In this document: positions 29,259 to 63,543 of the stretch, one piece after another
Numbering within the stretch: position 1 is the first letter of the stretch
How the letters are laid out: each line of letters opens with the position of its first letter
Assembly: GCF_000003815.2 (NCBI RefSeq)
Contig: NC_049981.1
Coordinates: 21,472,257 to 21,536,256, forward strand
Length of the DNA: 64,000 nucleotides
Origin: Branchiostoma floridae
Taxonomy: Eukaryota; Chordata; Leptocardii; Amphioxiformes; Branchiostomatidae
Reading direction: 5' to 3'
Made by a program: the position numbers and the translations under genes
Notes under the pieces: generated by a model
What the model was told of the DNA's origin: nothing
The model's database searches: none
What the model saw: the letters and a program-made list of their open reading frames with translations, nothing else

Positions 29259-31080
29259 TCATTCAGCACTGTGGATGGAAACAAACATGGGGCACTTCTG
29301 CATAATGACACAACCCCCGCAGTCACAATTGCAACCCCCACAGTCACAACCCCCGCAGTCGCAGCCCCCGCAGTCACCACAACAGTCACCACAGTCACCG
29401 CAGTCACCGCAATCGCCGCAGTCACATCCGGGACATGAACCACAGTAGCAGTTGCCGCAGTCACCTCTCGAGCGGTGATGCTTGTGACGTCTCTTCTTGC
29501 CGTGCACGTGTGCAGGTGGCTCAGCAACGTCAGGTAGCGCCGCACGTTCCTCCACTATGACACCTGCAGGTGAAATATGTGCAATAGATATAGAATGCAA
29601 CACTGTGTTCCGTATCACCCAAGGTGTCAGTCCCAACGGAGCAATGAAATAGGCAAAGAATTTGACAAGAGTGGTCAAGGTTTTAAACTGACTTGTTGTA
29701 ACGTCCAATGGCACAGTGTAAGAAAAAGCACTGTAGATGATTTGTCCTGGCCTTTATATTGACATGATACCATTACCAATGAAATGAATTATAAGTAAAA
29801 TGGTCACAGAGTGCCCATTCGCACTTAGATCGATGTACCTCCTTTTATAAAATAGAGACTGCAATCTCCAGCAGATCTCTATAGGGGCTAGCAATATCCA
29901 GCCGGCCAAATCATCCCGGGTTGGCCCCGTGCTGGAGATTTTTTGGTCAGCTGGATATTTGCTAGCCCCTATAGAGATCTCCTTGGAGATTCATCACTTC
30001 ACTCAGGTACAAATGGGTACCTAGCTTCGGTTAGGGACGTCCCTCGGATAGGACGTTAAACTTAAACTCATGAGGTTCCGTGTTTGAGGAGAGCCACACC
30101 TCGAGCACGTTAAAGAACTCGCCACACTTATTGAAGAGAGTAGGGATCCTTCCCGGTGTGTGTGGGTTAAACCGTAATCACAGTCTGGTCTCCGGGTTGA
30201 CATCTTAAAAAATAAGGCGATTGTCACCCGTTATCTTTAGGCCACAGCAAGTAAATTTTATGGATGACATCAGCGCGCGCATTAATTTTCGCCTGATTTC
30301 AGAAAAAAAAAAAGCTTGGATGGTCAACTTGACGATTAAGTACCAAAATGAGCAAATACATTCTGTTGTAGCCTAATAATTGTACTCGTAGAAGTGACAC
30401 ATGCGAGGTACCCAGGACTGTAGTTGTAGAAATGAAACTTATTGGATAGTTGTAAAAGTGACACCAATATGGAAGCCATGAGTGTGGTTACCAACTTTGT
30501 TGGTGATGCCAGTCTAACACACTAGTGTCACTTTTACCACACCAGTACATGTCTTGAATACAGGAATGAATGCCGTGTTGGCTCTGATACCATGTTTTGT
30601 CCATTCAATTCTTGTTACAACATTCATCACAACTTAATGGTGCTTATTTTCGAAAATGTAGCCATCTTGTTTTTTTCACCCATCTTGTTTTTTTTTCGCC
30701 CTATCGCACTATTTTTGCAGTCTGTAGAGGATGTCATTCATAAAATTTACTTGCTGTGGCCTTAGTGTAATTTGGCAGATTTCAATAGATAAATAAATAG
30801 AAACTGTACCTTTCGAGGTGACCACTGGCTGAGCGGTGACCGCAGGGGGAGGATATGGGACTTGTCCCAAACTCACTCCATTCGGATCCAGCTGCATGCC
30901 AGCTTGTTGGTACGGATAATCGCCATTTTGAGACGGAGCCTGTCCGAAACTGACTCCGTTCGGATCCGGCTGCGTGCCGGCTTGTTGGTAGGGATAAGCG
31001 CCGTTTTGTAGAGGAGGTCCCGTGGGTTGGTCTTCGGCATACACAGCTTTAGGGTACGGCGGAGGCGGTCCGGCATCCAT
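29259..31080 (-). CDS. Gene A: PPxY and Cys-rich-tail protein
   Basis: Exon 1 30810-31080, exon 2 29259-29563, phase-1 intron with canonical GT-AG; 576 bases, 191 residues. Exon 1 starts MDAGPPPPYP (PPPY is a WW-domain ligand motif), carries an internal duplication (GAYPYQQAG ... DPNGVSFGQ / GDYPYQQAG ... DPNGVSLGQ) and ends PVVTSK. Exon 2 starts GVIVEERA, has a basic stretch (GKKRRHKHH) and then about 21 Cys, mainly as CGDC and CDCGGC units, ending in a 14-residue extension (MQKCPMFVSIHSAE). No signal peptide and no long hydrophobic segment. The family is unknown to me; metal binding, heavy S-acylation or structural cross-linking are all conceivable. The upstream in-frame ATG at 31140 is not used as start because the MD(A/T)(G/A)PPP start is shared by genes A-D. 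Confidence 0.7.
29868..29992. mobile_element. Foldback element in the intron of gene A
   Basis: Arms of about 30 bases (agatctctataggggctagc / gctagcccctatagagatct) around a GC-rich loop. The same element lies in the intron of gene D (53528-53640, one arm eroded), and its left end survives in pseudogene E at 57628-57658. The insertion therefore predates the A/D/E duplication. Confidence 0.7.
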
Positions 31081-31264
31081 GTTGCTTGGCACAAAAGGTT
31101 GAGAAAGACATGTTACGTTTGTGGTCGTACCGTAGGTCATTTTTTTCTTCGTTTGAAAATGGTCTTAAACAGAATGTATATAAACTTTGGACTAGTCGTA
31201 CGTGCTAATTATTGAGATGAATGAGATCCCAACAGCTTTACATCGTTATCATTATTTACTTTCC

Positions 31265-32935
31265 AAGCTAGGCCGCGTGGGTACCGATACAGAGTACCGG
31301 TAAAAATCCGGCTTTTTATTCTTGGACCGGTCCGAAAAAAACGGACATGAAAAAATCATACACATTTAGACCGGAATTTGGACCTATTAGAAAATAAACA
31401 GATTATATCGGCAGGCGCTCACATATTTTGGGTCTGCCAGTTAAGTTGTTTTATTATCTGAGACTGAAAAAGGACTGCAAAGCGCTCTAGATAAACTAAA
31501 CATATTCTGCACTAAATGGAAGCTCGAAGTGAATCTAAAAAAAAAAAAATTATCATATTCAACAAATCTGGCCGATTATTTTCAAAACAAAACTTTTTAT
31601 TCGGACAATAGAGAGTAGACATCGTATCTTCATATTGCTACCTAGGTATTACCATAACATCATCAGGTACCTTTTCATTAGCCAAAAAACAATTGTCAAA
31701 CAAAGCGCGCAAAGCCATGCACAGCTTCAAATGTCTAACTCGTTCATCAGTCTCACCCGATAGCCTTCTAAGAATATTCGATTCCTGTGTTAAACCCATT
31801 CTGTTATATGGTTGTGAAATTTGGGGTACCGAGAAATTAAATGATACATCTCCGATAGAAATGACACACAACCAATTCTGCAAGAGCATTCTTGGAGTCT
31901 CTAGAAATAGTAGTAATTTAGCATGTAGGTCCGAATTAGGCAGATTTCCACTAGACATAGATATTTCCGTTCGACTTGTAAAATATTGGTTGTGTTTAAC
32001 ACAAATGGATTTTACTACGCATCCATTACAAGTAAATGCACTCTTGGAACAGCATAACTCCGTTGTAAACGGCCGGAGAAGATCACCTTTACAGCGTGTT
32101 AAAGATATACTTGATTATAGTGGATATTCTTATCTCTGGTACTCTGACAACTCACTCTGTGACCCTGTATATGTATGTAATATGATAAGGAACAGAATTA
32201 CCAATATGTATATCCAGACGTCTCTACATAATACAAGTATAGATACCGGTAAGCTTAGATTCTACAAAACTTGTAAATCTGTATACGCTAGAGAGAAGTA
32301 CTTAGAACTAGTTGATTTCGAGCTGCGCTCCGCAATAAGCAAAGTCAGAATTAGCGCTCATCCTCTTGAAGTGGAAAGAGGGAGATATAAGAGATTACCA
32401 GTGTGTGAAAGAATTTGTAAATATTGTACATCTAAAGCAGTGGGAGACGAGACACACTTCATTTCCAAATGTTCATTCAACGAAACCGAAAGAATCACTC
32501 TGTTTAGAGAAGTCACAAAGTATTATCCCAACTTCCCCACATTGACAGACGAACAGAAAGCTACTTTTCTCTTGAAATCGCAGAACCCACAAATTCTAGA
32601 AAATGTGGGGCTTTTCGTCTCCCTCTGCTTCCAAAAAAGAAGTCAAACCCAACCTGTTTAGAAATAGCCAACACTAGTATTAGATTAGAATATTATTTAT
32701 GGCTGTCCATTGTCACTATGTGTATACCATGTACACGTACTTGCAATTACTCCTCGGGCACGAACTTGCAAATAAACTTCCATCAATAAGAGCGAAGTAG
32801 AGTCGAGTTTATAGTCATTTCTACCAAGTTCTACAGTCAAACTTGCCGACGTGATTAGCGATAACGTTTAAAACGCCAGTGGGGATCGGATACTATATCA
32901 AAAATTTCGTTTGAAGTGAAGCGAACCGTTGTATA
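31265..32935. mobile_element. TIR element X, split by a LINE insertion
   Basis: Left part 31265-31445 (gcgtgggtaccgatacag, attatatcggcaggcgctca) and right part 32795-32935 (agcgaagtagagtcgagt, acgccagtggggatcggata) are adjacent in the related copies at 52132-52515 and 56250-56628. Between them lies the LINE fragment 31450-32790. Confidence 0.65.
31450..32790 (+). mobile_element. 5'-truncated non-LTR retrotransposon (LINE)
   Basis: Encodes the end of a reverse transcriptase and its C-terminal domain. The thumb region reads KWKLEVNLKK, IIIFNKSGR, VSSYCYLG with one in-frame stop; then an open frame 31693-32661 with PILLYGCEIWG, SELGRFPL and a Cys/His motif (CKYCTSKAVGDETHFISKC). The RT catalytic core is missing. 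The 3' UTR ends in cgaacttgcaaataaac without a long poly-A tail. It is related to the minus-strand LINE at 33985-35985. Inactive. Confidence 0.85.
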
Positions 32936-33059: not shown

Positions 33060-33980
33060 ATGAGGCTGCCAAACTACTTGTGCCCATATCATGCCCGTAT
33101 GAGCTACGTATCTCCAGATCCTTTTTGGACATACAGGTACACGGAGCTCACACGGACTTGATTTACGAACAAGTGTGACAGCTCCCGAACAAACATGGCG
33201 TCAGGCTCGAAGCCGGGGGTGAAATGATTCCATTCCACCGCTAATTACCTTCCACGGCACTCCCTTTGCCGGCATAGGTCAAGGGATAGGTGAGGTGAGT
33301 CGAGAGAACCTTAGCCAACGTTGAAAATCGCACACAGAGTTACATTCAACATGAATGCTAGTCCGCAAAAGGACGGTAAAGCTAAGGGCACAACCCGCCG
33401 TACGTGCAAATACGTGCTGTCTACGTGCCAAAACGTGGGCTATCTTTCGGGATCCGTATTAAAGTGGTAAGTACCGCCTCCGTACAAGGAGGTTAAAAAC
33501 CTCCTTGCTCCGTACGAACTCGAACGGATTTTGGAGCACGCAGACACGCCGTAGAACTTAACGTACAGGCAAAACTTTGTGTGCCATCGGGCTGCGGATT
33601 CGCACCCCGTACGTGCCAGTACGGACGACACGCCTGCCCTGAGTGTGCAACCTGAACGTTTTCAGAAAAACATGGCGGACGTGGCCTCCCAAAAAAGCGT
33701 ACGGACAAATTACACGTACGGCGGGTTGTGCCCTTAGCTTAAGACGTAACGTAAGAATGTTTGATTTCGCTCCATTCTACACGTGCCCACAGGAAACGCT
33801 GTATAGACGTATACCTATGCTAGGAACAAACGAAAAAAAACACTGTTTTCTTACCAACAAGACAGGTAGACCAAAGAGAAACTGCCAAACAAGGGGAAGT
33901 TTTACGACTCTTGTACCTGTTGAGTTGGTTTTACGCTTCCGATGCGTGGGAGGTGGTGGGGTTGACGTCTGTGTTATTAA
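33060..33980. repeat. Duplicated upstream block, copy 1
   Basis: Highly similar to 36065-38270: gagaaccttagccaacgttg, ttacattcaacatgaatg, gtccgcaaaaggacggtaaa, gcacgcagacacgccgtaga and cactgttttcttaccaacaa all recur in order. The ORFs over it are not conserved in frame between the copies. It contains a tiny palindromic insertion at 33486-33507 and is cut by the LINE at 33985. Confidence 0.85.
33486..33507. mobile_element. 22-bp palindromic insertion with 8-bp direct repeats
   Basis: aaggaggtt, aaa, aacctccttg, flanked by ctccgtac on both sides (33478-33485 and 33508-33515). The paralogous block at 37748-37755 has a single ctccgtac and no insert, so this is a real insertion with target duplication. 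Confidence 0.7.
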
Positions 33981-33984
33981 TAGA

Positions 33985-35985
33985 ATGATCTTTATTTGCA
34001 TGTTCCTGCCCATGTGGGCTAAATGCAGCAAATCCCATAATGGGATACTAATTAAAAAGACTAAGTGCTATAACATGGAGTATTACAATTGAATAAACAA
34101 TACATCTGCAACTAAGCTATCACTATATCTAACGTTTACATGACTCTTCCCTTTTCTTAAAACATGTGTATACGAACTCACAGAGTTTGTGTTGTACAAA
34201 GTTGTCTGTGGTTGTCATTATATGTACAAACAGGTTGTCGTTGGTTAACTCTTTACATCGTGTATCTACTACATTCAGAGCACTGATAAAAGAGTTGCGC
34301 ATATCATTGTATAAAGGACACTCTAATATAAAATGGACTTCATTCTCTATACGGTTGGAGTTACAAAGTGTACAGAGTCTATTATTCGGAGGAGTCTGGT
34401 TGTATCTTCCCACTTCAATTTGTAGGGGATGGTCACTGATTCTTAATCTAGCCATGGCTCGGCGATGGCTGAAATTCTGAATATTAAGGTACTGTTCTCT
34501 TTCGTAGGTATGTTTGATTTTTCTATATGTTCTTAGTTTGTTTCCTTGTTTTCCGGTCCTACCACTGGAGTTCAGCCCTGAGTAAAAGGTTTGAAGGTAA
34601 ATGTCCTTCAGTCTTTGCTTCACCTCCGACTGAATTGATGGTATATCTCGACCGTTGTTTAACAATAGGTATGCATAACCCGACTCCTCCAAAATCTTAC
34701 TTACATTAGATAGCCAGCATGGTATATTGCGTCTGTGTAGGTCTTGTTGTACAAGAAATGCTTCATATTGTATGCTATTTGTCGGTACTTCTCTAGTTAA
34801 TCTACAATAATAAGAAAATAGTCTACTGAAAGCCTCGATCCATAGAGGGAATCTTCCTAGCTCCGCTCTAGTAGCGAGATTACTGGCATTTCTTCTTACA
34901 CCTAAGACAACTTTACAGAACTTTAGATGCGCTTGCTCTAATGGAGAATTGTCGTTTAAACTAGAATTGCTCCACACTTCTGCACCATACAATAATATTG
35001 GCACAACACAAGCGTCAAATAACTTACATTGCAGTGGTACTGAAGCATTGTTTCCTCCAAGAGTTGTTCTTATGCTAAATAGCGCCCTTAGTGCCTTCTT
35101 TTGGAGGGTTTTCATTGCTGTGTTGAATTTACACCCCGCTGTAAATACTACGCCTAAATAACAGTACGAGGATACCACTTCTATGTCTTTGTCGAATAAG
35201 CAAAATTTATAGTTTGATAACAATCGTCCCTTACGATTGAAAACAATGATTTTCGTTTTCTTTAAGTTTACTGTTAGTTTCCATTTATTGCAGGAAAGGC
35301 CGAGAACATTGATTGCGTTCTGTAGGCCACGTTGACTTGTTGACAACATGACAACGTCATCGGCATAAAATAAACTTGATACTTTGGATGAATGAAGTAG
35401 AGGGGTATCTAGGTCTCCTGTATTGAGATCGTTAACTAAATCACTAACGTACAGATTAAATAGCGAGGGGCTTAGAACACATCCCTGTCTCACGCCAATC
35501 TCTACAGGGAAATTTTCACTCAGACCTATACTAGTTTTTACACAGGCTTCTGAGTTACTATATAAACTTTTGATGATATGAAAGAATTTCCCCGAGATGT
35601 CATTGGATAGAAGTTTGAATAGAAGACCCTGGTGCCAAACTGAATCGAAAGCCTTCGAAAGATCAATAAAACAAGCGAAGAGGCGTTTTCCGGACTGTGT
35701 GTACTTGGAGATTAGGGTTTTCAATATAAAGATATTATCTGCTGTTCTGTATTTTTTTCTGAATCCTGTTTGGTTGGGTTTTAAAATTTCGTTATCTTCC
35801 ATGAAAGTAGTAAGTCTTTTGTTTAGAATTGAACTAAATAATTTTCCCAGACAGCTAGAAATTGCAATACCCCGATAATTGTTTGGATCATCTTTTCTAC
35901 CTGACTTGTGTATTGGAACTATGTAGCTACTGGACCAGTCTTGTGGGAAGATTCCTGTTTCGAGAACGAAATACACTCATACAAA
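33985..35985 (-). mobile_element. LINE with 615-codon reverse transcriptase ORF
   Basis: Open frame 35976-34129 contains the RT domain: QTGFRKKYRTADNI, FIDLSKAFDSVWH, VRQGCVLSPSLFNLY, the catalytic FYADDVVML, and KWKLTVNLKKTKIIVFN. The C-terminal part has VPILLYGAEVWS, AELGRFPLWIE and a Cys/His motif (CTLCNSNRIENEVHFILEC). The element lacks its 5' half (no endonuclease domain before MYFVLETGIFPQDW), so it cannot move alone. Its 3' end (catgcaaataaagatcattc on the minus strand) borders block repeat 33060-33980. The intact frame implies recent insertion. Confidence 0.85.
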
Positions 35986-36064: not shown

Positions 36065-38290
36065 CTGTCAAACTACTTGTGCCCATACCAAGCTCGTATG
36101 ACCGGAGGCCAAATTCCTTTCCAGGGCAATTTAACCTTCAACGGCACTCCCTGTGGTGGCATTTAATAATAGAGAACCTTAGCCAACGTTGAAAATCGTT
36201 CACCCCAGCACCCCCTCCCCCCACCCCGCCGTAAAACAAAAGCAAGCCCTGCTAGAAGTCTGCGAAGGAGGCAAGCGTCAGGCCGGGACCACAAAGCGAT
36301 CCGTATTTTCTGATTTCTCGCTCTCAGTGTACGCGTTATGTATACATTAATTATAGTAGACTGATATGTTAAACCATCAAATCATACGATATTACGGTAG
36401 ATTTCTTCATACGTATTTCTGTCAATTTCACAGGTAGCAGCTTAACATGAAGTTTCTTTAGTGTAAGTTACTTTAAGAAAAATGGAACATGTATCACGCC
36501 TTCCTGTTACATTGTACAACAGCAAAAATGGCTCAATGGGGCTCTTTTTGAAGGGGAGATCTTACATGGAAGTCAGAGTGGAAACCCATGAAGCGGTCTA
36601 TATTTCAAAGAGTTTTATGACTTAGATCCCTAGTTTTCAAATATAGATATAGAAAGATGAGGTTGATTTATGTTACAGTTACCAGATTACCAGGCCATTT
36701 TAGCACGCAGAGTTATGCCTAGGTTACACATAGCCGACTTTGGCTCCCGAACACTAGCCGACTCTTAGCCGACCCAAGTCGGCAGTAGTTCGGGAGTAGT
36801 CTGACCAGTTTAGGCCACGCCTATTTTTTAGCGCCGAACATGTCCCGAACACCTCCAGACCGGTAAATGACTTACTCCCGACTGTGTCCCAAATGCTAAC
36901 TAACCTATCACCAACCAGCCCGACCTCTAGCCACAGACTGCCTAATCACTCCCGACTGATCCCCAACCGATTGCCGACCCTTTTTCGACTTGAAATAGAC
37001 ATAATCAGCGATTTTCAAAAGAGTGCCCATTTTCGTATTTAATCAAGAATGTCCTTTGTTCTATTTGTAAACATCACTAAGAGATCAAATTTAGATCACA
37101 TATAGCTCCAGTGCGGCATTTATGGGTCTTTTTGTTTTTAGCTGGATGTCTGTCGTGTGAAGTTCGGGAGTGATTCGTCTACGTTCTGGCAATAGTCTTT
37201 TTGCTTGGGAATGAGTTAGCAGAGATTTGTCTAAGGTCTTGGGGTGAATCATTGGTAAGTTGGAAACAAGCTGGGAGTAAATCAGCAATGTTTATGGCGT
37301 GGTTAAGATTTAATTTGACTGCTGACTTACTCCCGAACACCAACCGAACACTAGCCGACCGTGCCGAACACCAGCCGACCACCAACCGACCCATTCCAGA
37401 GTTGCCGTTCAGAGCCGAATGTTTTGAACATTTCAAAACATTCGGATGGAGCAGCCGAACGCCAGCCGACTCAGCCGAACGCCAGCCGAACGCCAGCCGA
37501 CTCAGCCGAACGCCAGCCGACTACAGCCGACTAGCTCCCGAATCACTCCTAAACCATAGTCGGGAGAGAGTCGGGAGCCAAATTCGGCTATGTGTAACCT
37601 AGGCATTACATTCAACATGAATGTTAGTCCGCAAAAGGACGGTAAAGCTTAGGGCACAACCCGCCGCACGTGTTAATCATGCTGTCTACGTGCCAAAACG
37701 TGGGCTATCTTTCGGGATCCGTAATTAAGTGGTAACGTTAAGTACCGCCTCCGTACGAACTCGTAGGGAATCCGACGGATTTTGGAGCACGCAGACACGC
37801 CGTAGAACTTTACGTAACGACAAAACTTATTGTGCCATCAGGCTGCGGATTCGCCCCCCGTACGTGCCATTACGGGCGACGCGCCTGCCCTGTGCAGCCT
37901 GAACGTTTTCAGAATACATGGCGGACGTGGCCTCCCAAAAAAGCGTACGGACAAATTGCACATACGGCGGGTTGAGCCCTTACAATGTAGCTTAAGACGT
38001 AACGTAAGAATGCGAGTTTGAGTTCGCTCCATTCTACACGTAAGCACAGAAGGGAAATGCTGTATAGACGTATACCTATGCTAGAAACAATTAGAAAAAA
38101 ACACTGTTTTCTTACCAACAAGACAGGTAGACCACTGAAGAGAGACTGCCAAACAAGGGTAAGTTTTACGACTCGTCTACCTGTTGAGTTGGTTTTTACG
38201 CTTCCGACGCGTGGGACGAGGGTGCGGGGAGACGTCACGCGTTCCTGGAAAAAGTCTGTGTTATTAATTATCAGAGCTTAGACGCCTATA
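36065..38290. repeat. Duplicated upstream block, copy 2, with an 890-bp insertion
   Basis: Second copy of 33060-33980, interrupted at 36716-37605 by a TIR element. Shorter and more diverged versions of its right part (ctagaaacaaacataaaaaa, accaacaagac, cgtgggaggggg) lie upstream of genes B (41440-41700), C (47200-47470) and D (54620-54790) and pseudogene E (57770-57940). Confidence 0.8.
36716..37605. mobile_element. 890-bp Harbinger-type TIR element (TTA target duplication)
   Basis: TIRs of about 34 bases (tgcctaggttacacatagcc ... and inverse ggctatgtgtaacctaggca) flanked by TTA at 36713-36715 and 37606-37608. The empty site is preserved in the paralogous block: gagttacattcaac at 33337-33350. 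Interior: tandem gccgaacgccagccgact-type strings in both orientations; no transposase. The 3-bp TTA duplication fits PIF/Harbinger. Confidence 0.85.
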
Positions 38291-39952: not shown

Positions 39953-40871
39953 CTACATAATGACACAACCCCCGCAGTCACAACCCCCACAGTCACAACC
40001 CCCACAGTCACAACCCTTGCAGTCACCACAGTCACGGCAGTCAGAGCAGTTACAACCCTTACAGTCACAACCGCTGCAGTCACAACCATTGCTGTCACAA
40101 ACCCTGCAGTCACGACAGTCGCGGCAGTCACAGCAATGCTTCTTCTTCTTTTTGTCACATCCGTTACGTGTACCACGCTCCTCCACTAGGACACCTGCAG
40201 GCGAAATATGTTTAATATGCCACGACATATGATTCATCGCAAACAAGCCTCAACGATTTCCCTGATAATGTCCTAGTTCATTTACTGCTTAGAGGTTCGT
40301 CATTTCGATCAAATTCATACAACGCCAAACCTTTACAGTATGTTCAATTTTTCATGAAATTATTTAAAGAAACCAAAAGATTTGAGTAACCACTTAGTCA
40401 ATACTATCATTGTGATATCCTACCAAACTTGCTTCTTCTTCTGTTTTGAAGAGTGCCTCCTTACAATTAACATGCATACAGTTTTTCTTACGTGTCATAT
40501 AATTTTTTTGAATATGTGGTTTATATTGCATTAATTTGTTATTCTTTTGCTTTGCTTGTTTCAAAAAAAAAATTAAATTAAAATTTTTAACCTCCTTGTT
40601 TTAATGTAATGTTTTTGAAGACTCACGAACATAAGCTTCAGTCTTGAGTGTGTCACCAAAGAGATACTGCACCTTTTGCGGTGACGACTGGCTGGGTTGT
40701 GACCGGAGGGGGAGGACATTGATGATCCTCTCCGAAACTGACTCCGTTTTGACCCGGATGTATGACGTCATCATTTTGTTTTGGGTAATCGCCATTTTGT
40801 AAAGTGGGTTCGGTGGGTTGTTCTGCGGAGTTCACGGCTTCATGGTACGGCGGAGGCGGCGCGGTATCCAT
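39953..40871 (-). CDS. Gene B: PPxY and Cys-rich-tail protein
   Basis: Exon 1 40673-40871 (MDTAPPPPYHEAV ... PVVTAK), exon 2 39953-40194 (GVLVEERG, KKKKKHCCDC, then about 23 Cys), phase-1 intron of 478 bases; 146 residues. The Cys tail is more varied than in A (CRDC, CKGC, CSGC, CDCGGC). It ends CGGCVIM with a TAG exactly where A has CAG, so A reads 13 residues further through sequence that B still has downstream. Exon 1 groups with gene C (HEAVNSAEQPT / QEAVNSGGQPT). Confidence 0.7.
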
Positions 40872-44358: not shown

Positions 44359-45397
44359 TAGATATATGTACTGTTTGGACATGCGGTTTGAATATCATGT
44401 TCTGAAGGTCATGAATAATAATGAAGGTCGTGCTTGGTGAAAGCGCTTACGTGCAAGTTTCTTAACACATAACACATACCCACCTGCCAAAGGTCTGGAC
44501 AATCCATAAAAAGGATCGTGATTTAAAGGTGTGAGGACATAGACCCAGACAAAAAGGAGTTGTTCAGAGTATTTTAGCCAAGAAGGCTATTGTAACATTT
44601 CCTCATAGACTAAGTAAATGATGTCTTGATTTGGACGGTGTATATCTAATATTGTGGGCTCTTGTTTAGCCATGTCCTTTGTAAATGCCTTTACAGTGTA
44701 ACTACTTGTATTACATATTGTATATTGTTTAGTTACATGGCCGTGGCTGTATGTTTTATACAGCCTAATAAATCAAAGCAAACATAATGTAACATAACAT
44801 TGCATACTTTATTTAGAAAATCCATAATCTTCCTAGACTTCAAGACATGATTCAAACAGCAATGACATACATACAGAACATACAAACATCAAATAAATAT
44901 TTACATACTGTGGGTCGAACAGTCCACTGCTAGTACTGTACATACAAGTGGTTATATCAAAACGATACTGGGCAGACAATATCATTATTCTGGAAGGGGA
45001 CAATAACAAACAGTCCTGTATCATCACGTCTTCCATACAAGTCCGAAACTTCCGAATAAATATTGATGGCAAAATTTAACCTAGAGAAATCCATTAAGGC
45101 TTAGGTCCCAATTGGAAAACGGGGCAGTTCACTGGCTATTTTTGGCATTTTCGTTCGTGACCCCTACGTGGCACCTTGGAGCACCTTGTGGCTCCCGGTG
45201 TATTTTTGGTCCCGGCCGGGCACCGGGTTGAACTTAAGTCGAACTTAAATGAACATGCACAAATATACGCCGTGACCTACCCGTGTGAAACACCGAGGAA
45301 ATTGAAGGGCGGCCTGCATTGGAACCGGACGTTCCTATTTGCGCAGGAAGAACTCTGCTCTACTCTACTCTCAACTCTACTCTACTCTACTTAACAG

Positions 45398-50968: not shown

Positions 50969-52131
50969 CCGGTGTGACAGCGATCTCGCCCCCCCGGCGA
51001 TCTCGCCCCCCCGGGGGGCGAGATCACTAGCGTTTTCGCCCCCCTTTAGCGTTTTCGCCCCCCCCCCCCCAAGAGCAGCTGGTTACTACATATTACAGGT
51101 GCGCTACCTGGTACTATACTGCACCTGGGGAGTAACGTGTATGGTGTGTTACCTGGTACCTTATGGCACCTTATTACCGTACCGTAAGATGCCTGTCATA
51201 CCTCGAAAGTCGATACTATATTGTTCGGTGCAAACATGACATTGAAATGAAAAAGACAATTTTTGCAGCTGAGGTGGCATAAAAACAGTACTACTGCGAA
51301 CGTATAAATCAACACCGTCTATGGTACGGAATACGTCAGCTATATGTTTTCAATTTGTCACAGTGTTTTCTTTCTTGTGCTGGAAACATTTCCAAAGCAC
51401 TAACAAAAACACACATGAATAATAGTTTCTCATTATAAACACTATCTACGCGCAAGTTGATATAGCTGTTGCTAAATGCTACACAAACACTGGTAAAGTA
51501 CCAGTCTTAAGAAACACGGGTAAATGCATCAGTTCCTAAATACTAGAAAAAACAGTCATGTTGGAGGTGAAGATATCCCTTGGCCAGATGCATATACCAA
51601 AATGTGCGTTATTCTAATTAATACCTATTATTTGCATAATTAATAAAGACATCACATAGTTATTTTGTGGTCACTTCATGGTAGAGACTTCATATTGGAG
51701 ATATATAGGTTGTTTGAGGACAGGTGAATACAATGAAATACATCTTATGTCAAGACTCAGGTATATGCAATAATGGGAATACAAGGGACCCAACCCTCCT
51801 TGTCTGAAACAAGTTCAACTATCTTATTACCATGTAATTACGTCAATATTGATACTATGAATGGAGTTATGTATCAAACTCGTGTACTTATATCATTCTG
51901 AAACTGCATTTTGTGATTTATACCAATCAACTTCTAAAATGTCATGTAAACCCGTTTTTTTTTTGGGGGGGGGGGGGNNNNNNNNNNNNNNNNNNNNNNN
52001 NNNNNNNNNNNNNNNNNNNNNNNNNNNNNNNNNNNNNNNNNNNNNNNNNNNNNNNNNNNNNNNNNNNNNNNNNNNNNNNNNNNNNNNNNNNNNNNNNNNN
52101 NNNNNNNNNNNNNNNNNCGCTGTCACACCTG
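50969..52131. mobile_element. 1163-bp TIR transposon, copy 1 (with gap)
   Basis: Ends ccggtgtgacagcgatctcg and cgctgtcacacctg. Subterminal runs of gcgatctcgcccccc and gttttcgcccccc in inverted arrangement. The interior is almost identical to the copy at 60303-61465. No ORF: non-autonomous. It sits inside a copy of element X (cggtacagcgtg left, tacaaaaccagtcc right). Confidence 0.88.
51978..52117. other. Assembly gap (140 N) in the right end of a TIR transposon
   Basis: Replaces the G-rich subterminal region of the element at 50969-52131. The intact second copy (60303-61465) has about 139 bases at this place, so the gap size is right and its content can be predicted from that copy. Confidence 1.
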
Positions 52132-52511: not shown

Positions 52512-54089
52512 CTACTCCAGGAAACAGCACAACACAGACAAACAGTCCCCACAACTCCCGCAATCACAACCCCCGCAGTCACAGCCCCCGCAGTCACAGT
52601 CGCCGCAGTCGCCACAGTCACAGCAGTCACAGTCGCCGCAGTCACAACAGTCACAGTCGGGACATGTACCGCAGTAGCAAAAGCCGCACCACCCGCCTGA
52701 GCCGCCGTGCCTGTGACGCTTCTTCTTGCCGTGCATGTGTGCCGCAGCCACAGCGCCAGGTGCCGCCGCATGTTCCTCCACTAGGACACCTGCAGGTGAA
52801 ATATGAAATCAACTAGAATTGTAACATTTGCAAGCAAATGTATGATGTTCTCCTTCACCGACTACTACGCTGTTTATTCTAGCTTAAATGACATTCATAT
52901 GTTGACCAGCTTTCAGCCTTGTCCTGTATCTAATGTAGCAATTCTGCATAACATAATCACACACCACAGGATACTACTCTAGGGCGCGGTCACATAGGTC
53001 GTGCGATCGTCGTACGATTTTGATGCCATCGGATTTTCAAGCAGACCGTATCACTAACACTAACCAACCACCGACATTCATCCATAATAGCATTCTCTTT
53101 CAAGACAGTTGAACTTCGCAGGAGACGTATATTTTTGTCTTCCGAAATTCCCGAAGTTAGCGATCGTACGGCAATCGCACGACCTATATGTATGTGACCG
53201 CGCCCATACCAGTAACGCGTGAAAGCCGTCTGGTCTAGTTCATTGACGTTATTTGTTTTGGGAAGGTCAGGTAGAAACGGAGCAAAGACAATATGTTTCT
53301 CTTCACACCTGCGAAGGTAAACATGATAAAATGAATAAGTGGAAGGGCTAATAACGTCAGTGTGTGGCATAAGACACATCGAAACAACATGGCAACCGAA
53401 AAATAGATGGTCTAGAAAATAACTGGCAAGAAATGAGGGGCCCTTACCTTGGACATATCAACTACTATTTCGCTGCGCATACGCACTTGGGTCAATGAAC
53501 CTCCTTTTATAGAGTAGAGACTGCAATCTCCAAACAGATCTGTACGGGGCTAACAATATCCAGCCGGCCAAAGAATCTCAGGTCAGCCCCGTGCTGGAGA
53601 TTTTCGTCCAAATGATTATTGGTATAGATCTGCTTGGAGTCTTTTTCTCAAGTTCACTCAGGTGTAAATAAGTACCCTCGGTTAGGACCGTCCCTCCGAT
53701 AACACGTTAAATGGTGGTCCCATGTTTGAAGAGATCCACAACTCGAGCACGTTATGGAACCCGCCACTCTTACAATATATCGGAAATAGTAGGGGTCCTT
53801 CCCGATGTGACTTACAGTGGATCTGGTGTGCGGGTTGACATCATGAAAAGGTGATATCACCACTCACCAGTTATGTCAATCCTTCCACTAATGAGGTAAA
53901 AGTCAATAAATAAAGAGATATTGTACCTTGTGGGGTGACAACCGGCTGGGTGGTAACTGGAGGGGGAACCTGTTGAAAACTGACCCCATCTTGTTGGTAC
54001 GGATAGGCGCCGTTTTGTAGAGGGGGTCCCGTCGGTTGTTCTCCGGCGTACACAGCTTGAGGGTACGGCGGAGGCGGTCCGGTATCCAT
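52512..54089 (-). CDS. Gene D: PPxY and Cys-rich-tail protein
   Basis: Exon 1 53927-54089 (MDTGPPPPYPQAV, PTGPPLQNGAYPYQQ, PVVTPQ), exon 2 52512-52789 (GVLVEEHAAAP, GKKKRHRHGG, GWCGFCYCGTCPDCDC, about 23 Cys, ends CLSVLCCFLE), phase-1 intron of 1137 bases; 146 residues. Exon 1 and the intron match gene A. The stop TAG at 52512-52514 falls on the border of a TIR element. The intron holds a MITE (52982-53216) that pseudogene E lacks, and a TIR-type repeat (53528-53640) shared with A. Confidence 0.7.
52982..53216. mobile_element. 235-bp MITE in the intron of gene D
   Basis: TIRs gggcgcggtcacataggtcg ... / ... gtgaccgcgccc, TA on both sides (52980-52981, 53217-53218). Pseudogene E has the empty site actctaccagtaac at 57379-57392. 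A diverged relative lies at 26411-26556. Confidence 0.85.
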
Positions 54090-55793
54090 GCTGCTTGGTA
54101 CAGATTACTGGTCATAAGAAAGAATAAGTCGTTATGTCTGCGGTCGTACCACAGCACAAGTCATATTTTTTCTTCACCTAAATCGGATCTAAAATTAGTC
54201 TAAAACTCCATGGTTGTGCGTATCAACTTTGAACTGATCATGCGTGCTAATTATCTGATCTTTTCATGACCTCAATGAAAAGCTGCCAGCAGGCCGATTT
54301 GAGCTGAATAAAGGTTCAAACAAATTACTCAAATCCGGCTAAACAAGTTTACATAGTAATTATTCTCCAAGCAGAGGTTGGAGGGGAGATTATGACCATT
54401 TATGATATGCCTCGCTGGTGAGGCCGGCGGAAAGAAAATGGGGCATACGATAAAACGACTTGGGGAGTAATCATTATTCAGGTACCCATTTCTACACTTG
54501 GATAGAGTGAGGAAAGAGATGTGTACAGTTTAGTGCCTTTCCCAAAGGCACAAGATCGCTAGCGTGACAGGATTTTTTAAAACCCAGGACCCGTGACTGG
54601 CCTCTGGACAAAACACCCTGTAGATACGCCACACAAAAACAAACCGACAAAAACTCATTGTCCCTACCAACAAGACGGGTAGTCCGAGACAGATACTACC
54701 AGGTAGAAGGACGTCCTTCTTCTTTTAAGCTGTTGATTTTGTTGTAATGTTTCCGCCGTGGGAGGGGGTGACGTTGGCAGTTTCCTCAACAAAGACTTGC
54801 TTAGAAGCTTAGAAGACTATATTACCACGTTTCCAGCGGATAAAGCATTGTTTCATTGAGTGCCAACCTTAAGAAAATTTCAATAAACTCGACAGAGGAT
54901 CTGTAAGAGAGTAGGAGGCATTTTCGTGAACAGATAAACGTGTAGCCCGTACAGGTTTGCACAATAATGACTCAGTCCCTGTGTTATGACGTACTTTAGG
55001 TCGTTTAATACGCATGGCCAGCCATGGACAATGGATTGAAGGCCACGCATGGTCTAAGCGACCCCTGCAGCTTTTCAAAAGTATTGCATTCCATTTCGAA
55101 ACTTGAAAACGTTTGGTTTTATTCAAATATTCAAACTTTAGATCTTTACAATCTTGCGGTCAACTCGATATGCATAGTTGGCCGAATTACAATGCATATA
55201 CAATGGACTTTCGGTCGATACGAATAGCTAACAAGTAACCAACATTCTGGATAAAGTTGAACTGTGATTTCATTTTTCAACACAAAAAATTTGACCCACC
55301 AAAGTTCATTAGTGTTGGTAATAAAAGTCATTCTGAATGGAGTTTAACTGTATTTTGAAAAGAGATTGGACTTACCCAAATTTTCGACTTTATCTAGAAT
55401 TACTTCTACCAACACAACTGATCTTTTAAGTTAAGAATAGTCAGGATATTTGTTGTAAAATCATCTACTATACCTAACAGTTCGTTAAAATCTATTGAAA
55501 TTATAAAATCGTGAAACTTATTGCATAGGCTGTACTTACTGATCTTGTCTAATGTTGGTAATAACTTAAAATGCATTATTACTTTAAATCTATCTACGCA
55601 TTATTTCTGTTTAATTATCACTTAAGGTTACAACAAGTAGTAATTAAAATCTCCGTGTTGTTACAGTAATGTAGTGCATGCACAATGTTCCATGTGATGA
55701 TAGAAGCTGCATATCAGTAAGTTTGTTGAAAATACATCATCAGCATGTTGTTGATACTGGATTCCTCCTAAATCCTCCTACATATGCAAATTC

Positions 55794-56622: not shown

Positions 56623-56876
56623 CTACTCTAGGCAACAGCACAACACAGACAAACAGTCCCCGCAGTCACAATCCCCGCAGTCACAGTCACCACAGTCGCC
56701 ACAATCACCAGAGTCAACAGAGTCAAAGTCACAGCAAAATCCACAGTCACATCCGGGACCGCAGTAGCAGAAGCCACACCACCCGCCCGAACCGCCGTGC
56801 CTGTGACGTCTCTTCTTGCCGGGTGTCGCCGCGACTGCATGTGGTGGTGCGGCCGCATGTTCCTCCACTAGGACAC
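56623..56876 (-). pseudogene. Pseudogene E: exon 2 only of the PPxY/Cys family
   Basis: Open exon-2 copy (GVLVEEHAAAPPHA, GKKRRHRHGG, GWCGFCYCG, then CDCGFCCDFDSVDSGDCG ... CLSVLCCCLE) closest to gene D. The acceptor is broken: D reads cacctgcag before the exon, E reads cacctgctg. Exon 1 is missing: intron homology to D runs to about 57658 (ggccaaagaatc) and then jumps to the upstream block (aacatgaatgctact). Several Cys positions of the tail are replaced by Phe, Asp or Ser, as expected after loss of constraint. Confidence 0.7.
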
Positions 56877-57109: not shown

Positions 57110-58455
57110 GGACCTGTTCATGTCTCTGCCATAGGCCACATCCTGTCTAACCCCTGGTCAATTAGCTTGCACAGTGTGTCTGTGAGCTGACCAGTGGTGC
57201 AGAAAAAGTATAGTACTATGAAAATGTGTGGTTCTATTTCATGCAAATGAGTTCATACATGTAGTACCACACATTTTTCATAGTAACATACTTTTCTGCA
57301 CTAGGGGGATAGTAGCCCTCGTGACAATTTTTTACTATCAATTACAACTAATGAAATCACACACCACTGCAGACTGCTACTCTACCAGTAACCATGGTGA
57401 CAGCCGTCTGGTCTAATTATTTGTAGAAACGGAGTAAAGACAATATGTTTCCCTTCTGCGAACGTTAACATAACAAAATGGCTGACGTCAGTGTGCGACA
57501 TAAGACACATTGAATCAACATGACAACTGAAAGATAGATGGTCTAGGAAATAACTGGCTAGAAATTAGGGGGCCCCTACCTTTGACATATCAACAACTAT
57601 ACATTTCGCTGCGAGAATGTGATCTCCAAGCAGATCTCTACGGGGCTAGCCGGCCAAAGAATCAACATGAATGCTACTCGATAGGAAGCAACGCAAGGGG
57701 GCTGTAACAAGTCAAGTAGAGATTGGGAAAGACCCAATTGTACATGTTCGTACAAGAGGAAATGTAGACACGTGACAGAAACAAACAGACAGAAAAACAA
57801 CTCCATGACAGAAAAGAAACTCAAATTGTCGTGACCATCAAAACAGGTAGTCCAAGACAGAGCGAGATTCTGCCCGACCGGAGGAAGTTCTTCGTCTTTT
57901 CTTATGTTTCCGTCGTGGGAAGGGGGTGGGGGGTGTTTTGATGCTGGCAGTTTCCTCAAAAAGACTTGTCAAAGCTTAGAAGACTATATTACCACGTTTC
58001 CAGCTGATAAAGCTTTGTTTAGCTAAGTGTCAACCTAAAGACAATCTCAGTTAAGTCGACAGAGGATCTGTAAGAGAGAAGGAGGCATTTTCGTGAACAG
58101 AAAACGTGTAGCCACGTACAGGTTGGCACTATATGTTTAGAAATAGGTCGTTACAGATGGGTAGCCATAAACAATGGATAGAACATGGCCATTTCCCCTC
58201 AGCCAATCAGAGCCCTTCAATTACTGTGTTTATATCCCCATGCAGAAAAGTATGGTACTATGAAAAAATGTGTGGTACTATGAAAAATGTGTGGTACTAT
58301 GAACTCATTTGCATGAAATACAACCACACATTTTTCATAGTTCCATACTTTTTCTGCCCCACTGGTCAGCTCACAGACACACTGTGCAAGCTAATTGCCC
58401 AGGGGTTAGACAGGTTGTGGCATGTGGTAGAGACACGAACAGGTCCATTGATCAA
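57110..58455. repeat. Large inverted repeat with about 200-bp arms
   Basis: 57110-57305 (tggacctgttcatgtctctg ... tgtctgtgagctgaccagtg ... ttttctgcac) is repeated inverted at 58242-58455. Each arm also contains its own foldback (actatgaaaaatgtgtggta / taccacacatttttcatagt). The loop of about 930 bp contains the exon 1 deletion junction of pseudogene E. Confidence 0.8.
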
Positions 58456-60300
58456 CAGAGACTGACTCAGGTCATCTCTTCTTTTTTAAAATATAATGCA
58501 GTATCCTGAATATAAATTGTCCTTGATTCATTTTGAGAAAAAGAAGGAAATCTTTGGACTATTGGCCATGTTCTAAAACAGCTAGAACATGGACACTCGG
58601 GAATACTATTAGGGCAAATAGGCTCGCCCGCCCAGTCAGGGGTTCCTTAACACCCTCGGCTTCGCCTCGGAGTGACCCTATATTTGCCCATAGTAGCCCT
58701 CGTTTCAGGTTCTAGCTATTACTTAGGTCTTTACACATGGCCAGCCATGGACAATGGATATAAGGCTACCCATGGTGAAAGTGACCCGTAAAAGTAATGC
58801 ATCCCTTTCCGAAACTTTAACATTATTTATTCAAATATTCAAACTTTATATCTTTACAATCTTGCAGTCAACTCGATATGCAGTTGGCTACATTATAATG
58901 CATTTACAATGGACCTTCGGAGGATATGAATAGCTGATACGTAGCCAAGATTCTGGATAAAGTAATGTCATTTTCCAACACAAGAAATTTGACTCACCAA
59001 AGTTCATCTGGGTTGGTGGATGGGTCTGGATTTTCAACTGATGGACTCAAGTCTTTGTCAAGGAATTAACACTCCATGATTTCTTATGTTGGAATGCACA
59101 ATTCAACTTTATACAGAATGACTTCTATCAAGTTGAACACAGATGAACTTTAGCCAGGATATTTGTTCTAAAATCACCTGCTGTATCTAACAGTTTATTA
59201 AATCTATTGGAAAAACATGGTGAAACTTATTGCATAGGCTGTACTTGCTGCTCTTGTTTAAAGCTCACTTTTACCCATGCATCATTTCGGTTTAACCATC
59301 ACTTAAGATTAGAACACGTCTGTCGATATACCTTATGTTTTAAAAATACGCTCTTCGTAAGTGTTTCTTTTTACATCAGTAGAAATAGAAAAAGCCATTG
59401 TAAGTTTTAAGTGATGCCACATTGATATAACATGCATTGGCATAATACCGGTAGTAAGACTTATACCGGTAGATTAAAAATACTGGAACTTAAAGAGATC
59501 TACACATGCAACAATAGTTATTTCTGAGCTGTGCACACTTCAGACATCTAGGTGTCCGATACACCATTTACAAAGCATCGATAACAATGCATTCGAAGAC
59601 AACAAGGCCAAAAGTTTTCAGTATACTTTTTTTTAAATTTCGGGGTAGGCAGCTCGTCGTGGGACGAACACACTGTCACATTCATTGCCAAATTTATATA
59701 GATCATAATTACACATGCTCACGGCACAAGACGAACATGATTCAACAACAATCTTGAATTTCTGTTGGTGACCTACAACTCATGTAAAAGTGTGAAGAAC
59801 CGTTGCATAATAGCCCGGATCTACGACTGAATGGGCAAAATTGAACGTACGCAGCCATTTTCCCGCCATTTTTATATCTACGCTAGCAGTGAAGTGTTAC
59901 GTCATAGCGGTTGTGACGAACAGAAGTTAAATGAAAATTCTTGACAGTATACGTCCGTTTTCTCATGACATTTTGTATGCTCATGCAGGTTTATGTTTTA
60001 TGCATTTACTGACAGAAAAGGAAGGAACATCAGAGGATGTATAAATGTACATAGCGGCAGTTAATTGTGCCGTGTTTCTTTCTACCGGTATTTTGTACCC
60101 CCTCCCAACCACGCGCCCGTTCGCCGTGTAATTCCGCGGCGTGTTACAATTACAATATTACGCTTTTAGCAGGACAAGAGTGGCAGAAAAGTTACACAGA
60201 AGAAGTGGCAAGGGTAACCTATAACAGCAACATGTAACAGGAGAAAATGATGCGTTGACAATTTGTCAAATCAGTATGGCTAGAGAAATCGTCGTAAACG
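58456..60300. other. Intergenic stretch right of pseudogene E
   Basis: 58735-59420 repeats 55015-55640 (ccagccatggacaatggat, tattcaaatattcaaacttt, ctttacaatcttgc, gtcaactcgatatgca), so it is the flank of the D/E duplication unit. The rest holds no gene that I can recognise. Confidence 0.5.
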
Positions 60301-60302
60301 TA

Positions 60303-61465
60303 CCGGTGTGACAGCGATCTCGCCCCCCCGGCGATCTCGCCCCCCGGGGGGCGAGATCACTAGCGTTTTCGCCCCCCTTTAGCGTTTTCGCCCCCCCCCC
60401 CCCCCCAAGAGCAGCTGGTTACTACATATTACAGGTGCGCTACCTGGTACTATACTGCACCTGGGGAGTAACGTGTATGGTGTGTTACCTGGTACCTATA
60501 TGGCACCTTATTACCGTACCGTAAGATGCCTGTCATACCTCGAAAGTCGATACTATATTGTTCGGTGCAAACATGACATTGAAATGAAAAAGACAATTTT
60601 TGCAGCTGAGGTGGCATAAAAACAGTGCTACTGCGAACGTATAAATCAACACCGTCTATGGTACGGAATACGTCAGCTATATGTTTTCAATTTGTCACAG
60701 TGTTTTCTTTCTTGTGCTGGAAACATTTCCAAAGCACTAACAAAAACACACGTGAATAATAGTTTCTCATTATAAACACTATCTAGTGCTACGCGCAAGT
60801 TGATATAGCTGTTGCTAAATGCTACACAAACACTGGCAAAGTACCAGTCTTAAGAAACACGGGTAAATGCATCAGTTCCTAAATACTAGAAAAAACAGTC
60901 ATGTTGGAGGTGAAGATATCCCTTGGCCAGGTACATACACCAAAATGTGCGTTATTCTAATTAATACCTAATATTTGCATAATTAATAAAGACATTACAT
61001 AGTTCTTTTGTGGTCACTTCATGGTAGAGACTTCATATTGGAGATATATAGGTTGTTTGAGGACAGGTGAATACAATGAAATACATCTTATGTCAAGACT
61101 CAGGTATATGCAATAATGGGAATACAAGGGACCCAACCCTCCTTGTCTGAAACAAGTTCAACTATCTTATTACCATGTAATTACGTTAATATTGATACTA
61201 TGAATGGAGTTATGTATCAAACTCGTGTACTTATACCATTCTGAAACTGCATTTTGTGATTTATACCAATCAACTTCTAAAATGTCATGTAAACCCGTTT
61301 TTTTTGGGGGGGCGAAATCGCTAAAGGGGGGCGAGGTAGGGGGGCGAGATCACTAGCCGGGGAGGGCGAGATCGCTAGCGATTTCGCCCCGGGGGGGCGA
61401 GATCGCTAGTGATTTCGCCCCCGGGGGGGCGAGATCACGGGGGGGCGAGATCGCTGTCACACCTG
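60303..61465. mobile_element. 1163-bp TIR transposon, copy 2
   Basis: Complete copy, flanked by TA (60301-60302 and 61466-61467). The left end is C-rich, the right end G-rich with repeated ggggggcgagatcgct, giving G-quadruplex potential and explaining the assembly gap in copy 1. Same length as copy 1 within one base. Confidence 0.9.
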
Positions 61466-61853
61466 TATTATGATAATAGATGTTACATATATCATCATAG
61501 ATTGTAAAGTTTAGATTTCGTAACTATCGACGGAGAACTTTCAAGTAGTCATTTGGAAATTCACAAACTGACTCGAATTGAAAGATGCAAATGCCAATTT
61601 ATCTATGCTCTATTGATACATTTTGTTGCGGTCTGTACTTTCTACATCTACCAGAAAAATACCATCTTCAATTGTATACAAGTGTACAGGGCAGGTTTGA
61701 CTGTACATTAGCCATAATGACTAGATTTAGAAAAAAAACATAATCATATAACTGTAATCGCACTCTTGCTTTATTACCATATGTCCTTTACAATATGCTT
61801 GTAGGAGCACAAATTTGTAAATGTATTTCATTAAATGTACGTAGTTTTAAAAG

Positions 61854-63543
61854 TCACAGACACAAACACAGACTACAATCACAGACATCACAGCAGAAGT
61901 CGCAATCACATGGGTTGAAACAACACACGAAGCAGCAGATGAAAGGGGTGGAGTCATTCGTCCGCTGCCTCTGGCCACGCCTTCCGTTCTGAGTCACCGC
62001 GACATACTGCTGGCCCCGCCCTGTAGTGGCTGGACCTGCGCCCTGCACCAGCACACCTGAGAGGAAACATTGTTATTTTTATGAAAAACGGAGATACAGT
62101 AGAAGCCAGTTAATTGCAGAACGGATTAACGCACTCTTCTGTTAATTGCACGGAATCTCCAAATCCTAGACCAGTGCGGTCCAGCTGGATAACTTCGCAT
62201 TATTGCACCAGCTGGATAATGCATTGCACGACGATCACTGGCAAATAGGCCGTGCAATTAAGCGGCTTCTACTGTATAGTTTTGGGTCTGTATGTGTGTC
62301 TGTACAGCTGTGTGTGTGCCTGTTAAGTTTCCGGATTTTTGTCGTCAGCATAATTCAAGAACCTCTGGATGTAAAGTTATGCTCCGTTTTTAAAAGTTAA
62401 GGTGTTCAATGATTTAAAGCCTGAGACATTTTCTTAGTGATGTGAAGAATTGTGATCATTCCACTGTGCAGCACTATTTGGTCTGGGTTTGTACCAACAT
62501 AGGTCGGATCGAGTTTGGGAGATCGTTGATGTATAGAATACAAAGAAATGACGATAAAGAGCTAACGTAACAACACAAAAATGTAAAAACTATTTTTTTC
62601 TCTAACGTCAACGGGCCCCCGTTACCAACAAACGCCACAGGGTCCCACACTTCTCGTAATAAACAATGACTACAAGAATGAAAACAATCTTTAAAGACGA
62701 TCGACATTCTAAGAAGCAAACAGAAAATCTCTAATTGGGTACCTAGCGGCCACAAAGAAATGACAGAGTACATGTAACCATGCTGCCTGTCTGCCACATT
62801 GAACCAAGGACAAACTTCCAATGGACCGATCCTGATCGAACGCCATATCGAACAAATAGAACCAGGTAGAACCCCCCTATTCTATTTCGAACACCTCCGT
62901 CAGAAACAGCCCCTTAGTGGGACAGAAACGGCCAAAGAAATACTGTTTTTGATGGAGGTTTTTGAAACAGAACATGATCAAACAGGAGGTGGGACTTCAG
63001 AAGCGGTCCATTCCTCAAGTATACCATTACAGTAACACCATAACCGTTTTTCATTCTGACGGACGTATGTTCAGTGACGGTGCGTGCTGAAAGAAAAACA
63101 CCTTTGTTAGTCGGCACTGGTTGGTGAGAGACGGGAGGGTACGCCGGTGCCAGTGGGTGCCCGTGTCCCGGTGGTGCCAGTGGGTGCCCGTGTCCCGGTG
63201 GTGCCAGTGGGTGCCCGTGTCCCGGTGGTGCCAGTGGGTGCCCGTGTCCCGGTGGTGCCAGTGGGTGCCCGTGTCCCGGTGGTGCCAGTGGGTGTCCGTG
63301 TCCCGGTGGTGCCAGTGGATGCCCGTGTGATGCTTGGCCCGGATGCCCTCCATTCCATTGGCCGGTGTTCCCGTGAGGTACTGGCTGATAATAAGGCACG
63401 TTAGAAGGGTAAACGGTCCCTCCATAGTTACTAACGATGGCAGGGTCTACATTGGACTGTGGCTTGAAAACAGTAGCGACGTCACTGCCAGGCTGTGGCT
63501 GTGCGAATCCACCATCTTGGTTTCTGTTCACGCCGTGCGACAT
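61854..63543 (-). CDS. Gene F: divergent member with HGHPLAPPG repeats
   Basis: Exon 1 63102-63543, exon 2 61854-62056, phase-1 intron of 1045 bases; 645 bases, 214 residues. Exon 1 starts MSHGVNRNQDGGF, contains about seven tandem HGHPLAPPG units (27-bp DNA repeat, 63150-63330) and ends PVSHQPVPTNK. Exon 2 starts GVLVQGAGPATT and ends in a short Cys-rich tail (CCFVCCFNPCDCDFCC, CDCSLCLCL). Intron phase, the [KQ]-G-V-[IL]-V junction and Cys-ending exon 2 tie it to genes A-D, but there is no PPxY and no CGDC units; the hydrophobic CCFVCCF pattern resembles palmitoylated membrane-anchor tails. It is the outermost and probably oldest paralogue. Confidence 0.6.
62097..62274. mobile_element. pogo-like MITE, copy 2 (TA target duplication)
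   Basis: 178-bp element with TIRs cagtagaagcc...ttaattgca and tgcaattaagcggcttctactg, flanked by TA at 62095-62096 and 62275-62276. It shares its interior with the element at 14741-14907. It lies in the intron of gene F, just upstream of exon 2 in transcription order. Confidence 0.8.
63150..63330. repeat. 27-bp tandem repeat inside gene F exon 1
   Basis: About seven near-identical 27-bp units (plus strand: gtgcccgtgtcccggtggtg plus ccagtgg), coding for HGHPLAPPG on the minus strand. Copy number probably varies between individuals without breaking the frame. Confidence 0.95.

Follow-up and report, generated by a model that had tools for sequence, protein, structure and literature searches.

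A putative tandem family of two-exon genes in Branchiostoma floridae that combines PPxY motifs with cysteine-rich tails

The window analyzed here, a 64,000-nucleotide stretch of the Branchiostoma floridae genome (contig NC_049981.1), contains a cluster of six related loci, designated A to F, all of which lie on the minus strand between 29259, where the stop codon of copy A ends, and the ATG of copy F at 63543, as an earlier sequence-only reading of this DNA had placed them. The comparisons described below support a tandem family of real protein-coding genes, with four intact PPxY genes, one divergent paralog, and one broken copy. The full layout consists of an exon encoding a PPxY motif, a phase-1 intron, and a second exon encoding GV[IL]VEE, a basic stretch, and a cysteine-rich (Cys) tail. 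This design had been ascribed to all six loci; it is complete in four (A, B, C, and D), but F has diverged from it and E is a broken 3' part. The open joined frame, GT donor, AG acceptor, and phase-1 intron are present in five of the six (A, B, C, D, and F), as had been described, and the exon pairs of these five were joined by script at obvious splice sites.

Exon 1 of copy A (30810-31080) comprises 90 codons plus one base, encodes PPPY, and includes an internal 78-bp duplication; its exon 2 (29259-29563), which encodes the Cys tail, extends past the position of the copy B stop codon, and the joined protein has 191 amino acids (aa). Copy B pairs a PPPY-encoding exon 1 (40673-40871) with an exon 2 (39953-40194) whose Cys tail contains Lys and Arg and ends in the CaaX-like C-terminus CVIM, for a joined protein of 146 aa. 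Copy C encodes PPSY in exon 1 (45954-46149) and a Cys tail in exon 2 (45398-45639), together 145 aa, while copy D has the shortest exon 1 (53927-54089, with PPPY) and an exon 2 (52512-52789) whose Cys tail terminates in CLSVLCCFLE, again giving a protein of 146 aa. Upstream ATGs are in frame for A and B, but the open frame stops short of them in C and D, so ATGGAT was taken as the start.

Copy E is represented by exon 2 only (56623-56876, minus strand) and has CTG at the acceptor position instead of CAG. An exon 1 for E was not found by the exon 1 profile in the six-frame window, and a blastn search for a remnant gave chance-level matches only (best E 4.3 in the region); E is probably a dead copy. 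Copy F joins an exon 1 (63102-63543) that contains a 27-bp repeat coding 9-aa GHPLAPP-type units and ends in PPVSHQPVPTNK to an exon 2 (61854-62056), giving a protein of 214 aa. It lacks both PPxY and the KKRRH stretch, has KGVLVQG in place of the VEE form, and carries a divergent tail, FICCFVCCFNPCDCDFCCDVCDCSLCLCL. The exon 1 and exon 2 profiles built from the window copies did not list F. With a 30-residue profile spanning the A-D junction, F scores 18.6 bits and the best of 1000 shuffles of F only 5.4; none of 2000 shuffles attains the observed pairwise score of the junction 30-mer against each of A, B, C, and D. Full-length pairwise scores of F are likewise reached by 0 of 1000 shuffles against B, C, and D, and by 82 of 1000 against A. 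Based on these similarities, we take F to be a divergent paralog of A-D.

In A-D the PPPY motif (A, B, D) or its PPSY variant (C) begins at residue 6, and the GV[IL]VEE anchor at the beginning of exon 2 is kept in A-E. The KKRRH stretch reported by the sequence-only reading holds for A, C, and E, but is KKKRH in D and KKKKKH in B. The joined proteins contain 21 (A), 24 (B), 19 (C), 23 (D), and 12 (F) cysteines. Cys accounts for 37-40% of tail residues in A-D and 33-40% across A-E, and in A-D the main spacers between Cys are Asp (17-26%) and Gly (17-30%). Adjacent Cys in these four tails are 1-3 residues apart, except for a single gap of 5 in B and in D, and the spacings across A-E are mostly 2 and 3. 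Runs of consecutive Cys do not exceed two in A-D and F and reach three in E. The Cys residues are retained while tail lengths vary. The best 19-residue hydropathy is 0.51-1.22 in A-D, 1.05 in E, and 1.38 in F, with the maximum falling in the tail in all six.

The last codons of B (39956-39967) encode CVIM, a strong CaaX box for farnesylation and the CaaX end of K-Ras4B; a TAG stop follows directly in B, at which position A has CAG and reads through. A CaaX end as a family-wide trait was considered and rejected: Cys occupies position -4 in four of the six copies (B, D, E, F), which is about the number that such a Cys density could yield, and only CVIM looks like a usual CaaX box. Tandem Repeats Finder arrays cover parts of all five tails A-E (29331-29425 in A, 39964-40135 in B, 45412-45478 in C, 52550-52675 in D, and 56653-56725 in E). 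Much of exon 2 would be lost from view after masking, as predicted from the letters alone.

Exon 1 and the Cys tail are under purifying selection. The ratio of nonsynonymous to synonymous substitution rates (dN/dS) in exon 1, for which values near 1 had been named in advance as evidence against the family, is 0.27-0.52 in all six A-D pairs (Nei-Gojobori; dS 0.32-0.66). In a codon bootstrap the upper 97.5% limits are 0.64-1.09, at or above 1.0 in three of the six pairs, and the share of replicates at or above 1 is 0.0025-0.0325. Changes in exon 1 number 21, 10, and 30 at codon positions 1, 2, and 3 (chi-square p 0.007). For the Cys tail read in its own frame, dN/dS is 0.02-0.13 in all six pairs of A, C, D, and E, after the extension of A past CVIM was trimmed and with B, whose tail is rearranged, excluded; in four of the five non-coding frames it is 1.13-1.71, 0.57-1.07, 1.49-2.17, and 0.57-1.70. 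When the ten tail pairs are aligned without regard to frame, the differences total 105, 113, and 166 for the first, second, and third codon positions, and the third leads in nine of the ten. Over the whole of exon 2, pairs with B give dN/dS of 0.29-0.39 in three of four cases, with dS saturated in the fourth (B-D). With so simple a method and such repetitive tails, the tail dN/dS values are indicative, and the frame control is the stronger part. Since constraint on the tail in its own frame exceeds that on exon 1, the tail appears to be selected protein sequence and more than a simple repeat. GV[IL]VEE and the basic stretch form conserved anchors within a loosely constrained linker.

The gene structure is also visible in how identity changes across the exon boundaries. 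On the acceptor side, nine of the ten pairs are 30-43% identical over the 60 bases preceding the acceptor triplet and 79-92% over the first 24 exon bases; the corresponding values for D and E, a recent pair, are 80% and 100%. On the donor side, the six A-D pairs are 72-89% identical over the last 36 exon bases, 60-80% over the first 25 intron bases, and 18-37% over the next 60. In the six-frame window, a profile of the four exon 1 copies recovers them at E 1.7e-41 to 4.7e-26 (next match E 1.6), and a profile of the five exon 2 copies recovers those at E 2.1e-28 to 1.4e-15 (next match E 0.67), values that are partly circular because the profiles were built from the same copies they find.

No Pfam-A family reaches its cut-off in scans at E up to 10 of nine single-exon frames, joined A-D and F, and six sub-stretches, in which HMMER filters drop most weak matches. 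The matches below cut-off are to Pentapeptide (0.0021 and 0.016, B), RhoGAP (1, B exon 1), and Plasmodium HRP (0.75 and 1.7, F); the six sub-stretches gave none. No relative was found in the PDB for copy D, the sole copy tried, or in Rfam at gathering scores, and a literature search found no paper joining amphioxus, PPxY, and cysteine-rich, nor any with five family peptide strings. No relative was confirmed among 64 pattern stretches for exon 1 in viral contigs or among 91 for exon 2 in the genomes of prokaryotes, collections in which one would scarcely expect an animal family.

The searched amphioxus assembly (513,431,437 bases, 431 contigs; the window is C3:21472257-21536256) was queried with five of the 11 exons, with only the best candidates scored. 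Exon 2 of C matches A, C, D, and E only, exon 1 of C matches A (in two pieces), B, C, and D only, and the second exons of B and F each match themselves alone. Because C exon 2 missed B and B exon 2 missed all others, these queries reach close relatives only. Besides itself, exon 1 of F matches 54 places, nearly all through its His/Pro/Gly repeat region; one is the opposite strand of F itself, and five, including three on contig C9, have E <0.001 (best 4.2e-7). On contig C9, long open frames at 6972911-6973714 match this repeat (best E 4.2e-7), probably owing to shared composition. Beside the window, three profiles detect no extra copies in the adjoining 40 kb on the right or 20 kb on the left, and the best blastp match to F in the right-hand 40 kb has E 0.092. 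Apart from the repeat-region matches of F exon 1, the relatives found by single-exon queries are thus confined to one cluster, which, together with exon 1 dN/dS below 1, the constraint on the tail, and the lack of a Pfam match at cut-off and of a PDB match for D, supports the original proposal of a tandem family with no named layout.

The duplicated unit extends beyond the exons. A conserved block upstream of D exon 1 (54749-55089, minus strand) has homologs upstream of B (~41613-41954), C (~47316-47733), and E (~57904-58188), and a genome search with the D block finds five places, all in the cluster. It lies ~0.7-1.6 kb upstream of exon 1 in B, C, and D, and also upstream of E exon 2, and may be a promoter, a 5' exon, or something else. 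Copy A does not show the block and may have lost it to the nearby reverse-transcriptase element described below. Within 150 bases downstream of the stop, A and B agree at 92% of 111 aligned bases, compared with 82% for their first exons, a difference suggestive of gene conversion or of swapped 3' ends; in this region D and E are 87% identical over 124 bases, and the other eight pairs 69-77%. The first AATAAA follows the stop by 583 bases in B, 584 in C, 78 in F, and 1499 in E. None occurs within 1.6 kb after the stops of A and D, and an assembly gap starts ~400 bases after that of D.

The remainder of the window includes several mobile or repeated elements and another probable gene pair. Between A and B lie the reverse-transcriptase frame of an element resembling long interspersed nuclear elements (34129-35976, minus strand; RVT_1 E 5.3e-38), a plus-strand frame at 31612-32661 that appears related to it by eye and has no good Pfam match, and a ~630-bp direct repeat (33340-33969 and 37606-38236, 84% identical), the first copy of which, judged by eye, has GGGCACAACCCGCCGTACGTG near one end and the reverse complement of GGGCACAACCCGCCGTACGTG further in. 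Between B and C, direct repeats of ~249 bp at 42178-42426 and 44112-44359 are 99.2% identical, start 1.9 kb apart, and have TGTCAC and GTGACA near their ends; they resemble terminal repeats flanking a short and recent element of the long terminal repeat type, and no clear target-site duplication is seen. A 1-kb repeat pair (50965-51971 and 60299-61312, 97.5% identical), adjoining strings of GCGATCTCGCCCCCCC, is a recently copied element. Two near-identical exons at 20491-20814 and 24668-24847 (minus strand) resemble four-disulfide WAP domains, the first by Pfam (WAP, E 5.9e-12) and the second by pattern only; with the signal-peptide-like starts MKALLL[AT]AVTVCLFG at 23478-23819 and 26672-26971 (minus strand), they probably constitute a tandem pair of secreted WAP genes.

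As for the function of the family, our preference, a tentative one, is that these tandem genes encode small, mostly disordered, cytosolic PPxY adaptors with a metallothionein-like metal-binding tail. WW domains of the NEDD4 family take PPxY as a ligand (PMC8509885), and the N-terminal motif would dock on WW domains, most likely those of NEDD4/ITCH-type ubiquitin ligases. This half would be followed by the short, putatively strand-like GVLVEE and the basic/His stretch, and the CxC/CxxC tail, with its Asp and Gly, would hold several ions of Zn, Cu(I), or Cd in a cluster like that of metallothioneins. How the ubiquitin system handles the adaptor or its partner might then be tied to metal loading. 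We prefer the metal cluster because polar CxC/CxxC strings fit metal-thiolate coordination better than an acylated membrane string; the Cys spacing is as in metal-thiolate clusters, the hydropathy is too low for a usual membrane helix, and Oikopleura metallothionein repeats, as reported in PMC8283569, show the same pattern of varying length with Cys kept. A bolder version, which we consider unlikely, is a new type of metal-sensing ubiquitin adaptor, encoded by a lineage-restricted cluster, in which metal binding by the tail would switch what the ligase receives, and which annotation would be liable to miss because of the simple-repeat appearance of its key exon.

Several observations weigh against the metal-binding adaptor. 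The Pfam scans gave no metallothionein match, even at E up to 10, within the limits set by their filters, and acylation or disulfide bonding is equally conceivable for the Cys tail. Copy C has the variant PPSY, and F is without PPxY. Among the non-coding frames of the tail, the antisense frame sharing the wobble base also has a low dN/dS (0.17-0.32), with four stops over the five tails, and the frame-blind alignment of the A and B tails has no excess of differences at third positions. The exon 2 linker before the tail is near neutral, with bootstrap median dN/dS of 0.70-0.99 in five of the six pairs of A, C, D, and E (0.27 for D-E) and no third-base excess across its codon positions (p 0.70). 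Finally, metal-response elements, for which TGCRCNC is the simple consensus used, are absent from the 1 kb upstream of B, C, and D and from the 457 bases available for F; two occur upstream of A, and the window background is 0.41 per kb.

The tail could instead serve at a membrane, as in adaptors of the LITAF/CYSTM1 style: S-acylation of the tail, in B maybe with prenylation at CVIM, would hold the protein at the endosomal or plasma membrane, where PPxY would recruit NEDD4-type ligases. The parts occur in the same order as in LITAF/CDIP1 and CYSTM, GVLVEE may be strand-like, and the exon 2 linker evolves nearly neutrally; the C-termini CLSVLCCFLE of D, CLSVLCCCLE of E, and CVIM of B, along with the more hydrophobic Cys string of F, point in the same direction. 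However, Pfam yields no CYSTM or LITAF match, the Cys residues of A-E sit mainly among Asp and Gly, B's CVIM end is lost in A, and C ends in DCDF. Moreover, the usual transmembrane hydropathy threshold is ~1.6, and no 19-residue stretch reaches it (best 1.38, in F). We regard such a membrane adaptor as possible if doubtful, and as nearly as likely as the metal-cluster reading.

Two further explanations are both improbable. The very high Cys content, the Gly-containing units, and the tandem cluster with repeat arrays in its tails would suit a disulfide-cross-linked structural protein of the keratin-associated or cornified-envelope kind, but the tail is Asp-rich, no such family is matched in Pfam, exon 1 with its PPxY is under constraint, and, judged by hydropathy alone, there is no hydrophobic signal-like start, all six maxima lying in the tail; this role is weaker than either metal binding or a membrane adaptor. 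Lowest in our estimation is that the loci are not genes at all and are decayed remains or a chance frame within a simple repeat. The repeat arrays over parts of tails A-E, the almost stop-free second sense frame of the tail (one stop over five tails), and the broken state of E are consistent with this, but coding-frame constraint in exon 1 and the tail, the fall-off of conservation at the splice sites, and the intactness of five of the six copies argue for genes. The putative metal-binding adaptor remains our preferred reading. The family also shows that routine repeat masking could strip out a coding tail that is under selection. Should the tail bind metal, metal handling would be connected with ubiquitin ligases in a chordate that is probably early-branching; if the tail is acylated, the cluster may represent parallel evolution of membrane adaptors.

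The nearest known counterparts to the predicted metal-binding tail are metallothioneins. In PMC3419175, the amphioxus metallothioneins BfMT1 and BfMT2 have 19 and 18 Cys, respectively, and are reported with metal-response elements and four exons. The cluster proteins resemble these and Oikopleura OdiMT2 in CxC/CxxC Cys density and in repeat arrays, but two exons are found here instead of the four of BfMT1 and BfMT2. They also differ in their long PPxY/Pro-rich N-terminal half, their Asp/Gly-rich tail, and the lack of a metal-response element signal. A dense CxC/CxxC domain is present in tails A-E; membership in the metallothioneins was nevertheless rejected, as there is no Pfam profile match, no PDB chain (D only), and no upstream-element signal.

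Conserved PPxY, as in NEDD4-type ligase adaptors, is present in A-D (E has no exon 1), and in this respect the family approaches two groups of small adaptors. LITAF/CDIP1, as described in PMC5095921, bind ITCH/NEDD4 through an N-terminal PPXY and insert into membranes with the support of a Cys-rich Zn part; they share with the cluster proteins small size, a PPxY N-terminal part, and a Cys-rich C-terminal part. A-D, however, have ~20 Cys in CxC/CxxC repeats, whereas LITAF/CDIP1 have one zinc-binding motif, and LITAF domain membership was rejected on the lack of a Pfam match and of a 22-residue hydrophobic region between Cys motifs by hydropathy. Human CYSTM1 starts with a PPPY, and the CYSTM family is PF12734. 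According to PMC10217909, CYSTM proteins combine a beta strand and a variable linker with a C-terminal helix that is rich in Cys and has an acidic residue after it. The cluster proteins have a Cys-rich C-terminus and, in D and E, an acidic last residue, and they may also share the strand and linker: GV[IL]VEE, a putative strand-like element, is conserved in A-E, and the linker is near neutral in five of six pairs. Their Cys tail is far longer, and A-D lack a run of three to four Cys. CYSTM membership was likewise rejected, with no Pfam match and no helix by hydropathy (maxima 0.51-1.38, A-F), compared with a CYSTM helix that has 5-6 Cys, 3-4 of them consecutive. The resemblance to LITAF and CYSTM is therefore a likeness of layout and not of membership, and the A-D family, judged by the searches made here, fits no protein family searched: a small family, seen in one cluster only, that pairs putative PPxY docking with a dense Cys tail, an order otherwise known from LITAF and CYSTM1.

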